Below, in pieces: positions 39,308-53,178 of a stretch of 64,000 bases of DNA. The translations under genes and the position numbers were made by a program. How positions within the stretch are numbered: position 1 is the first letter of the stretch; the number at the start of each line of letters is the position of its first letter. The notes beneath the pieces were generated by a model. That model was not told the origin of the DNA and ran no database searches. It saw nothing but the letters and a program-made list of their open reading frames with translations. The DNA is from Mesorhizobium sp. J8 (lineage in GTDB: Bacteria > Pseudomonadota > Alphaproteobacteria > Rhizobiales > Rhizobiaceae). The stretch lies in assembly GCF_016591715.1 (NCBI RefSeq), contig NZ_AP024109.1, positions 3,596,001 through 3,660,000 of the forward strand. Reading direction: 5' to 3'.

Positions 39308-40087
39308 TCAAGCTTCCGGAGCTTCGGCGGCCGGGGTGTCGAGCGCCGGCTCGACCGGAGCCTCGGCTGAAGCGCCGATGTCGACGCCGAGCGCGCCCTG
39401 CTGGCGGGCGATGCCGTCAATGGCCGCCTTGGCGATCAGGTCGCAATAGAGCTGGATGGCGCGGGCCGCGTCGTCATTGCCGGGGATCGGGAAGTCGATC
39501 TTGTCCGGGTCGCAGTTCGAATCGATGATGGCCACGACCGGAATGCCGAGGCGCTTGGCCTCGAGGATGGCGATCGCTTCCTTGTTGGTGTCGATGACGA
39601 ACATCAGGTCCGGCGTCGAGCCCATGTCCTTGATGCCGCCGAGAGCCTTGTTGAGCTTCTCGCGCTCGCGGTCGAGGTTCAGGCGCTCCTTCTTGGTGAG
39701 GCCCTGGGCCTCGCCGGCCAGCGTCTCGTCGAGCTTGCGCAGGCGCTGGATCGAGTTCGAGATCGTCTTCCAGTTGGTGAGCATGCCGCCCAGCCAGCGC
39801 GAGTTGACATAATACTGGGCCGAACGCTGCGCGGCGTCCGCGACGATGTCGGAGGCCTGGCGCTTGGTGCCGACGAACAGCACGCGGCCGCCCTTGGCGA
39901 CGGTGTCGGACACCTGCTTCAGCGCCTGGTGCAGCAGCGGCACAGTCTGCGACAGGTCGATGATGTGGATGTTGTTGCGGGCGCCATAGATGTAGGGCGC
40001 CATCTTCGGGTTCCAGCGGTGGGTCTGGTGGCCGAAGTGAACACCAGCTTCCAAAAGCTGGCGCATGCTGAAATCTGGCAGAGCCAT
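39308..40087 (-). CDS. rpsB: 30S ribosomal protein S2
   Basis: 259 residues. Signatures include [22 protein letters not shown] (two overlapping parts), [26 protein letters not shown] and [22 protein letters not shown] in the usual order. A Glu/Ala/Pro-rich tail ends AAEAPEA. It is the first gene of the translation/envelope cluster and has a clear promoter at 40216-40244. Confidence 0.98.
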
Positions 40088-40215
40088 TCTTTAGTTCCTT
40101 TCCGGTTGGCCTCCACGGACACAGGCATTTCGGACGGGATGTCCTGATGCCACCGGAGGTTTCAGCCGGATTTCTCCCGGGCAGACACCAAAGTCCGTGT
40201 GTGGAATGAGCGCGC

Positions 40216-50540: not shown

Positions 50541-50867
50541 TCACTTCTTCTCCATCACGCATTGCAGCGGATGCTGATTCTGTCGGGCGAAATCCATGAC
50601 CTGAGACACTTTGGTCTCGGCCACCTCGAATGTGTAGACGCCGCACTCGCCCACTCCATGATTGTGAACATGAAGCATGATGCGTGTGGCGGCTTCGCGG
50701 TCCTTTTGGAAAAACCGCTCCAGGACGTGAACGACGAACTCCATCGGAGTGTAGTCGTCGTTCAAAATGAGGACCCGGTAGAGGCTGGGCTTCTTGGTCT
50801 TGGTTTTGGTGCGCGTGATGACGGCGGTGCCGCGACCGGGATCGTTGCGGTCTCCATCACTTTGCAT
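50541..50867 (-). CDS. clpS: ClpS adaptor for N-end rule degradation
   Basis: 108 residues. The core has the N-degron pocket signature [20 protein letters not shown] and the ClpA-contact segment [13 protein letters not shown]. The N-terminal ~25 residues are polar and flexible, as usual. ATG 50867 begins MQSDGDRND; an in-frame start at 50945 would add 26 residues. Directly upstream of clpA in one operon. Confidence 0.93.
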
Positions 50868-51071
50868 TCGCACCACGTCCGCCGTGGCAGTCAAACCGAT
50901 CGTCACGTAGTCCAGCCTTTTCGAATCCTCATGCGAGTTCAACATGTAGGTTCTCGATGGACGATTTTAAGCCCTTCTGTTTAGCTGACAATATGGCTAG
51001 GTGGGCAAACCTCAGCGAATTTCTCAATCGTGAATGCAGCAAGGCGCATCGGGTTGCGGTCGCGCATGAAA

Positions 51072-51144: not shown

Positions 51145-51474
51145 TTACTTCGCCTTGGCGACCACCGATTCGAAGGGCTTGTAGGCTTCCTTGGCGAGCT
51201 CGGCGTAGAGATTGCCGATCTTGCTGGCCTCGGCCACGAAGCTCTCATAGCTCTGCTTGGCGTAATCGGTCTGGATCTCGATGGCCTTCTCGATCGACTT
51301 GGCCGAGAACAGCTTCTCGAAGGCGGCGCTGCCGGCCTCGAAGCTCTTCTTGGTGTATTCGCCGGCCTCGGTGGCGATCGCCTGCGCGCCCTTGGTGAGC
51401 GAGGCAAAGCTCTTCAGCCCGGTGTCGGCAAACTCCTTGCCGTATTTCGTGAAGTCCTCATAGGTCTGGGTCAT
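51145..51474 (-). CDS. Phasin family protein
   Basis: Coats polyhydroxyalkanoate granules. 109 residues, almost all amphipathic helix with no Cys or Trp: MTQTYEDFTKYGKEF, GAQAIATEAGEYTKKSFEAG, then FEKLFSAKSIEKAIEIQTDYAKQSYESFV (in two parts). This is the rhizobial Phasin_2 pattern. ATG 51474 has AGGGAAG eight bases upstream. A near-consensus promoter with two inverted repeats controls it, suggesting PhaR-type repression. Confidence 0.9.
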   Translation of the reverse strand: MTQTYEDFTKYGKEFADTGLKSFASLTKGAQAIATEAGEYTKKSFEAGSAAFEKLFSAKSIEKAIEIQTDYAKQSYESFVAEASKIGNLYAELAKEAYKPFESVVAKAK

Positions 51475-51522
51475 TTCATGCTTCCCTTTGGTTGAAACGC
51501 CCTTTTGGCCCCGGGCGCCCTT

Positions 51523-51533
51523 GTGCAATGCAC
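51523..51533. promoter_or_regulatory. GTGC-N3-GCAC operator, proximal site
   Basis: GTGC-AAT-GCAC, 49-59 bases before the phasin ATG and just downstream of the -10 element, over the expected transcription start. TGC..GCA inverted repeats are the kind of site described for the phasin repressor PhaR. Confidence 0.7.
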
Positions 51534-51536
51534 CTC

Positions 51537-51565
51537 AATATATTGTGCGCTGCACAAAAGTCAAG
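51537..51565 (-). promoter_or_regulatory. Near-consensus sigma-70 promoter of the phasin gene
   Basis: On the minus strand CTTGAC (51565-51560), exactly 17 bases, TATATT (51542-51537). This is the best promoter seen in the window and predicts a transcript starting near 51530. Confidence 0.8.
51545..51555. promoter_or_regulatory. GTGC-N3-GCAC operator, distal site
   Basis: GTGC-GCT-GCAC, wholly inside the -35/-10 spacer of the phasin promoter. Its centre is 22 bases, two helical turns, from the proximal site, so both can be bound on one face. Confidence 0.7.
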
Positions 51566-51762: not shown

Positions 51763-53178
51763 GTGCGTCAGGCGTTGTCGGGCTTCGTCTCCAAATCTTC
51801 CTTCTCCTTCAAGGCGATCATGGTTGCCGCGCTCGCGGTGACGATTGTCGCCGCCGATGTCGCGTCGGCTCTTGCCGCGAAGTCCGCGGCCATCGTCGTC
51901 GATGCCAAGACCGGCAAGGTGCTCTATTCCGCCGACGCCAACGGCCGGCGCTATCCGGCATCGCTCACCAAGATGATGACGCTCTACCTCACCTTCGAGG
52001 CTTTGGCGAAAGGCAGGATCAGCAAGAACACGCCGGTGCCGTATTCGGCGCATGCCGCGGCTCAGCCGCCGACCAAGCTTGGCGTGCGCGCCGGCGGCTC
52101 GGTTTCGGTCGAGACGGCGATCCTGTCGATGGTGACGAAATCGGCCAACGACTCGGCCACTGCGCTCGGCGAACTGCTCGGCGGCAGCGAGGACAATTTT
52201 GCCCGCATGATGACGGCCAAGGCGCGCCAGATCGGCATGAACGGCACCGTCTTCCGCAACGCCAACGGCCTGCCCGACCCGGGCCAGTTCACAACGGCGC
52301 ACGACATGGCGATGCTGGGCATCGCGCTGCGCGAGCATTTCCCGCAATATTACGGCTATTTCTCGCAGCGCTCGTTCCTGTATGGCCGCCAGCGCATCAA
52401 CGGCCACAACCGCCTGCTCGGCCGCATCAAGGGCGTCGACGGCATCAAGACCGGTTATACCCGCGCCTCGGGCTACAATCTCGTCTCCTCCGTCGCCGAC
52501 GGCGACCGCCGCCTCGTCGCGGTGGTGATGGGCGGCGCTTCCGGCCGCAGCCGCGACAACCAGATGGCCGCGCTGATCAACACCTATCTGCCGCGCGCCT
52601 CGACGCGCGGCAGCGGCGATCTCATCGCCAAGGCCAACGACAATCCGGTCAAGACGCTGGCCAAGGTCTTCCTGCCCAAGCAGGACGCGCCGACGCCGGA
52701 CGCCAAGCCGGCAGCGGACGACACCGTCGTTGCCGCGGCTGACGACGTTAAGGACGATACCCAGCAGGTCGCCGAAGAGACCAAGCCGGTGCTCAAGGCC
52801 CGCAAGGTAAAGACGGTCGCGATAGCAGCCATGGCGCCGGCTCCCAAAGCCGAGGACACCAGCGTCGCCGCCTATGCCGAGCCGGCGCCTGCCGCGCCCT
52901 CGATCGATCCGGTCAAGACGTCGTCGGTGCCGTCCGGCTGGGTGGTTCAGGTTGCCTCTTCGCCCACGAAGTCGGGCGCCCAGAGCCTGCTCGACCAAGC
53001 AGCCAAGCAGGCACCGAAGATCCTGGCCGACGCTTCCGGCTTCACCGTCGCCTTCGACAAGGGGGGCACCACCTACTATCGCGCCCGCTTCGGCGGCTTC
53101 GGCTCGAAGGATGCCGCCTGGAAGGCCTGCGATGCGCTGAAGCGCAAGAAAATCTCGTGCTACGCCGTCGAACAATAG
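51763..53178 (+). CDS. D-alanyl-D-alanine carboxypeptidase (PBP5/S11) with SPOR domain, GTG start
   Basis: Periplasmic enzyme trimming peptidoglycan pentapeptides. 471 residues: signal peptide at about 15-40, S11 domain with SLTK (near 67), SAN (near 128) and KTGYT, then a Pro/Ala/Lys linker and a C-terminal SPOR domain (GWVVQVASSPTKSGAQSLL) that binds denuded septal glycan. GTG 51763 is the first usable start. An ATG at 51739 in the same frame reads only MKIQGK before a stop. A GTTACC-N11-GGTAAC inverted repeat lies at 51656-51678. Confidence 0.93.
   Translation: MRQALSGFVSKSSFSFKAIMVAALAVTIVAADVASALAAKSAAIVVDAKTGKVLYSADANGRRYPASLTKMMTLYLTFEALAKGRISKNTPVPYSAHAAAQPPTKLGVRAGGSVSVETAILSMVTKSANDSATALGELLGGSEDNFARMMTAKARQIGMNGTVFRNANGLPDPGQFTTAHDMAMLGIALREHFPQYYGYFSQRSFLYGRQRINGHNRLLGRIKGVDGIKTGYTRASGYNLVSSVADGDRRLVAVVMGGASGRSRDNQMAALINTYLPRASTRGSGDLIAKANDNPVKTLAKVFLPKQDAPTPDAKPAADDTVVAAADDVKDDTQQVAEETKPVLKARKVKTVAIAAMAPAPKAEDTSVAAYAEPAPAAPSIDPVKTSSVPSGWVVQVASSPTKSGAQSLLDQAAKQAPKILADASGFTVAFDKGGTTYYRARFGGFGSKDAAWKACDALKRKKISCYAVEQ

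Follow-up and report, generated by a model that had tools for sequence, protein, structure and literature searches.

A gene for a 109-aa phasin of the Phasin_2 family lies at 51474-51145 on the minus strand of the window, as we call the whole 64,000-nucleotide stretch of Mesorhizobium sp. J8 DNA analysed here. Its product scores 85.6 bits against a Pfam cut-off of 24.9 (PF09361, E 2.9e-24). The gene shares an intergenic region with a divergent gene for a D-Ala-D-Ala carboxypeptidase and is followed by clpS (Table 1). Upstream of it, between 51565 and 51521 of the minus strand, we find the promoter arrangement TTGACT-N16-TATATT. A sigma-70-like scan of 1 kb returned two matches, this promoter and one at 50991, each agreeing at 10 of 12 positions (shuffle mean 0.3). 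The first-pass annotation of this DNA had reported a near-consensus minus-strand promoter before the phasin, which the 10/12 match bears out, although the register it gave, CTTGAC-N17, is one base off the standard TTGACT-N16. Rfam returned no element at gathering score at the phasin promoter; elsewhere in the window, at 40087-40203 of the minus strand, an rpsB sRNA match barely reaches the gathering score (40.2 vs 40).

Table 1. Features of the phasin locus, in window coordinates.
Feature	Position	Strand	Source and remarks
-35 hexamer TTGACT	51559..51564	(-)	promoter scan
-10 hexamer TATATT	51537..51542	(-)	promoter scan; hexamer differs in some orthologous strains
Operator O2, TTGTGCAGCGCACAA, within the -35/-10 spacer	51543..51557 (core 51545-51555)	(-)	sequence; candidate site
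Operator O3, AGGTGCATTGCACAA, covering the expected transcript start	51521..51535 (core 51523-51533)	(-)	sequence; candidate site
Expected transcript start, about 7 nt past the -10	51529..51531	(-)	inferred from promoter geometry only
Phasin gene, 109 aa, PF09361 Phasin_2	51145..51474	(-)	Pfam scan
D-Ala-D-Ala carboxypeptidase gene with SPOR domain, divergent; intergenic region common to the phasin	51763..53178	(+)	Pfam scan
clpS, the gene that follows the phasin; given for context only	50541..50945	(-)	Pfam scan

Two inverted repeats of the form GTGC-N3-GCAC, which the same annotation had placed in the spacer and over the expected start, can be read directly from the sequence. On the minus strand GTGCAGCGCAC occupies the -35/-10 spacer (candidate operator O2) and GTGCATTGCAC covers the expected start (candidate operator O3), with 22 bp from centre to centre; the plus-strand readings are GTGCGCTGCAC at 51545-51555 and GTGCAATGCAC at 51523-51533. 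The 15-bp palindrome TTGTGCRNYGCACAA is matched perfectly at the spacer site and with two mismatches at the start site. Lone GTGCN3GCAC sites are frequent and carry little weight: the window holds four against a shuffled mean of 2.02 (at least that count in 16 of 100 shuffles), and the genome 175 against 67 for a reversed-pattern control. The pair at 22-bp spacing has a single occurrence in the 6.69 Mb genome, and its control has none.

The genome encodes one PhaR, a protein of 197 aa with PF07879 (PHB_acc_N, E 1.6e-29) and PF05233 (PHB_acc, E 5.2e-17) both over the cut-off. Its gene is divergent from neighbours that look by eye like phaA (thiolase) and phaB (reductase), and one PhaC_N gene is present as well; taken together, these make a PHB pathway likely. 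A scan of this genome for further pairs, which the annotation had suggested, was only partly rewarded. In addition to the unique 22-bp pair, a second phasin gene (Phasin_2; L009/L005, genome 1282098-1282130) has the pair GGTGCGGTGCAACA and TTGCAATGCACAA, 19 bp apart. We found no pair upstream of phaR, which has one weak site (CGCAGTGCACAA), and neither a pair nor a convincing site upstream of phaC; in the 400 bp before the third phasin TGC-N3-GCA is absent and only CGCATCGCG occurs. We accordingly rejected strong sites at all three of these genes. At the second phasin, the second site of the pair overlaps a -35-like TTGCAA, and its kin elsewhere show several pair layouts.

The two window sites resemble sites at which PhaR has been studied in other rhizobia. 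In the account given in PMC6201568, B. diazoefficiens PhaR leaves footprints at phaP1 (TGCGACGCACAA, TGCGTCGCACAA) and phaP4 (TGCGCTGCACAA), and these sites, with six more promoters, yielded the PhaR consensus TGCRNYGCASMA, which both O2 and O3 fit. That account also describes loss of DNA binding by PhaR as PHB is added in vitro. Like B. diazoefficiens phaP1, the window promoter carries two sites of the same consensus, footprinted there and predicted here. The layouts differ, however, in that the phaP1 sites are described as lying 6 bp from the -35, one on its upstream and one on its downstream side (PMC6201568), whereas those of the window lie in the spacer and over the start, 22 bp apart. 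With 6 bp on either side of a 6-bp hexamer the phaP1 spacing would be about 30 bp, as between O2 and the slot upstream of the -35 that we call O1 below.

For S. meliloti, PMC12542648 describes YGCRNYGCR, with EMSA support, as the core of the palindrome of PhaR (AniA), and O2 and O3 fit this core too. Phasin repression in that species is reported to be lost upon PhaR removal or PHB binding, and its phaP1 and phaP2 promoters resemble ours in having two palindromes of the same core, EMSA-tested there and predicted here (PMC12542648). The pairs are described as flanking the -35, unlike the pair in the window; the phaP2 spacing of 28 bp fits O1-O2 but the phaP1 spacing of 18 bp does not. In that paper's table the nearer 21-mer stands 47 bp ahead of the start, further upstream than O2 here, so that equating the tabulated sites with O1+O2 depends on the authors' phrase 'flanking the -35'. 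The words 'Mesorhizobium' and 'spacer' are absent from its main text. What the annotation had called a textbook double operator keeps its two sites on one promoter, but published rhizobial phasin pairs are described around the -35 and not in the spacer and over the start; one site on either side of the -35 is not what the window promoter has. PhaR sites of Paracoccus denitrificans and Rhodobacter, TGC-rich or CTGCN3GCAG as cited in PMC10888616 and PMC12542648, differ from those of the window in their outer bases (CTGC/GCAG). In M. loti, phasins and a presumed PHA regulator are reported to rise together, in passages that give no operators (PMC11511026).

Conservation upstream of orthologous phasins had been proposed as a check on the double-operator reading, and the reading survived it. 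We used the best 80 of 223 loci encoding a relative of the phasin; these near orthologues are Mesorhizobium records (for L091 and L109 the genus is not given). In all 80, O2 and O3 are both filled at a score of at least 10/14, at the same places behind TTGACY, and TTGACYTTT(T)GTGC is present; GTGC-N3-GCAC in its strict form stands at both sites in 58. At O2 the arms are TGC-GCA in 80/80, while the centre occurs as any of 13 triplets, each of them R-N-Y. Invariant arms around a drifting R-N-Y centre are what a palindrome-binding protein would leave at O2. The O3 arms are TGC-GCA in 75 and CGC-GCA in five. The centres of O2 and O3 are mostly 22 bp apart (n=63), otherwise 21 (n=12), 23 (n=4) or 20 bp (n=1). 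The O3 centre, ATT in 78/80, is nearly invariant where that of O2 is variable, and may also be held by something else, such as transcript initiation; it varies in more distant genera of the family.

Wider sampling revealed where sites can stand on such promoters. Of 199 genomes from the window's family, 141 contain a match to the phasin at E 1e-3. The family set consists of 90 promoters from 74 genera (three from Mesorhizobium), chosen by protein: the 30 best loci as returned, and 60, mostly one per genus, fetched before their promoters were viewed. Relative to the first base of the -35, sites on promoters of the window's type fall into three slots, O1 at about -14, O2 at about +15 and O3 at about +36, which at a threshold of at least 10/14 are occupied in 28, 81 and 42 of the 90 promoters, respectively. 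The slots are discrete: among 26 consecutive 7-bp windows, those that overlap no slot hold 0-3/90. The -35 positions behind these counts were picked by a simple consensus score and a few are probably wrong; at L273, L278, L280 and L299 the site spacings would by eye fit the slots with another -35, and these were counted as scored. O1 and O3 occur together in one promoter, with O1 without O3 in 27, O3 without O1 in 41 and neither in 21, and kinship among the 90 would inflate any P value on this exclusion. The genus of the single three-site promoter is also the sole genus on both the O1 and the O3 lists. O1 and O2 are 28-32 bp apart (about three turns), O2 and O3 mostly 20-23 bp, with four at 18-19 (about two turns). 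The annotation's description of the operators as 'in phase' thus holds approximately, at 22 bp here, and exact helical phase as a rule is rejected, given spacings of 20-23 bp in near orthologues, 28-32 bp for O1-O2 and 19 bp at the second phasin. At a score of at least 9/14, neither the 80 near orthologues nor the window's own promoter (row L245) showed an O1 site. We also considered that Mesorhizobium might retain a relic of O1 and rejected this, as a relaxed scan of the 80 promoters gave no excess.

At the level of the order we searched 397 genomes with the pattern TGCRNYGCACAA-N3..20-YGCRNYGCAC, using the reversed pattern as control. The pair pattern occurs in 106 genomes and the control in three. 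PhaR (PF07879) was detected in 329 of the 397, and the pair is present in 104 of these vs two of the 68 without PhaR (Fisher P 4.7e-8, kinship ignored); those two genomes are 56% and 64% complete. The search pattern is strict, and the remaining 225 PhaR genomes have no pair that matches it, so PhaR control does not need this form. Merging overlapping hits left 121 pair loci. A phasin is directly downstream at 92 of them, although the pattern search itself was blind to phasins; at 28 no phasin was detected, and at one it is 660 bp off. These phasin calls came from a profile seeded with the genome's three phasins and rebuilt from same-set hits, not from Pfam. By type, 69 of the 92 belong with the window's phasin (six of them from the window's genus) and 22 with the second phasin, and one is unassigned.

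These results support PhaR as the regulator well, as the annotation had proposed by inference: the sites fit the consensus, the genome encodes PhaR, 80/80 near orthologues have both slots occupied, and pairs co-occur with PhaR (104/329 vs 2/68). We put at about 0.92 the probability that the element is the promoter of the short Mesorhizobium phasin gene, repressed by PhaR at O2 and O3 and freed by PHB granules, with the partner site at O3 where orthologous promoters have O1. PhaR control of the phasin promoter is very likely, with binding predicted from the sites. What we observe directly is promoter-like sequence, conserved operators, PhaR in the genome and the co-occurrence of pairs with PhaR and with phasins; binding, repression and release by PHB are carried over from work in other species. 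When PHB is absent, PhaR would sit on both O2 and O3 and exclude RNA polymerase: at O2 it should clash with the polymerase in the spacer, and its occupancy of O3 would mask the stretch past the -10 and the expected start. As PHB granules form, PhaR would be titrated onto their surface and vacate the operators, whereupon phasin would be made and coat the granules.

Some results count against the PhaR explanation: the 225/329 PhaR genomes without a strict pair, the 28/121 pair loci without a phasin, the third phasin and phaC without convincing sites, and phaR with only a weak one. The first two of these, and the generic nature of TGC-GCA half sites, could equally speak for another repressor of TGC-GCA palindromes acting here in place of PhaR. 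We nevertheless regard such a repressor as very unlikely, because the window sites fit PhaR sites described as footprinted at phasin genes, pairs are almost confined to PhaR genomes (104/106), and phasin, the classic PhaR target, lies downstream at 92/121 pair loci.

A possible objection is that the operators chiefly serve the divergent carboxypeptidase gene, with the phasin a bystander, since palindromes are directionless and a carboxypeptidase relative stands beside the phasin in 80/80 near and 63/69 order-level loci. Both sites sit on the phasin's own -35/-10, however; the six order-level loci (one genus, g37) that have no carboxypeptidase in the fetched stretch have their pair at O1+O2 before the phasin, and second-type phasins also carry pairs (22 loci). 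We think it slighter still in probability than another repressor. Nor do we give more than the very smallest credence to the inverted repeats being chance or RNA-level features and not operators: single GTGCN3GCAC sites are indeed near chance level in the window, but the pair is unique in the genome, its arms stay fixed while the O2 centre drifts, and the slots are discrete, with only 0-3/90 in non-overlapping 7-bp windows.

PhaR control being the preferred explanation, how its operators came to lie in the spacer and over the start is a question for the phasin tree. This tree has 111 sequences and 109 columns, with weak deep forks and a bootstrap that had not settled; L273 and L230 are not included. 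One branch (support 97/87) holds the window and comprises 32 rows, 27 with O2+O3 and five with O2 only, and the adjacent branch (96/82) has 12 rows, all O1+O2; the join of the two is weak (86/77). The window's branch contains 27 of the 28 O2+O3 rows, the exception (L354) lying outside. The O2+O3 state needs six changes on the tree vs a shuffled value of 25.2. At least four changes are forced by starred branches, so that a strictly single O2+O3 origin without loss is not shown; the simplest reading of the mapped sites is one main O1-to-O3 swap plus some O3 losses. Among the 62 order-level tree rows, labelled at a threshold of at least 9/14 and, like all order-level promoters, preselected by the presence of a pair (a bias from which the family set alone is free), 53 are O1+O2, seven have all three slots, one has O1 only and one none. 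In other families, the phasin promoters L165, L183-L186, L133 and L164 each bear three PhaR-like sites, one upstream, one in the spacer and one at the start.

The window locus looks orthologous to promoters that have their partner site upstream of the -35, at O1; in the clade on the Mesorhizobium side this partner stands at O3. A relative of the carboxypeptidase is within the fetched stretch not only at the near and order-level loci counted above but also at 30/30 of the best family loci. Since it was kept beside the phasin, the change of operators seems to have happened in place; the phasin/carboxypeptidase locus looks old. A clpS relative is present at 79/80 near orthologues and 40/69 order-level loci. 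We incline, by a little, towards a picture in which the order's phasin promoters follow a three-slot grammar, with a near-fixed O2 in the spacer and a partner either at O1, about three turns upstream, or at O3, about two turns downstream. On this view the partner would have moved from O1 to O3, mainly once, in the common ancestor of Mesorhizobium and the genera near it, perhaps via a three-site promoter like those of other families; a clamp on the -35 would have become a block at the -10 and start, with no change of regulator or target.

Already known are PhaR, the site it binds and the presence of double operators at phasin promoters. Our comparison suggests that the spacer-plus-start layout, its clustering in the part of the family around Mesorhizobium and the model of three slots are new; among the matches listed, we found no report of Mesorhizobium PhaR operators or of slot shifts in the openly accessible literature. 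The PhaR-phasin switch would thereby extend to Mesorhizobium, with exact candidate operators, and bears on PHB, a bioplastic and a rhizobial carbon store. The locus also offers a natural case of an apparent change in operator layout under the same regulator, with the same target gene and neighbour. With regulator and target kept, the role of the second operator (cooperativity, tightness, response to PHB) becomes testable by moving sites between slots.

Beyond the phasins, TGCRNYGCACAA is enriched genome-wide, with 36 strand-hits (31 places) vs three in the reversed control. Neighbouring genes were called with a crude ORF picker, and Pfam was run on 29 ORFs by 22 of the 31 places plus one further site. 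Candidate PhaR-like sites lie upstream of or at the start of genes for an Acyl_transf_3 protein (L007), a PQQ dehydrogenase (L032) and a 3-hydroxyacyl-CoA dehydrogenase (L117). B. diazoefficiens PhaR is likewise described as touching the exoZ operon and exaA (PMC6201568). The remaining TGCRNYGCACAA neighbours have no obvious PHB connection and some sites fall within ORFs; all are candidates only. At L118 (genome near 6110060) a PhaR-like site lies between genes for a short-chain dehydrogenase and an acetoacetate decarboxylase, a possible link to PHB breakdown.
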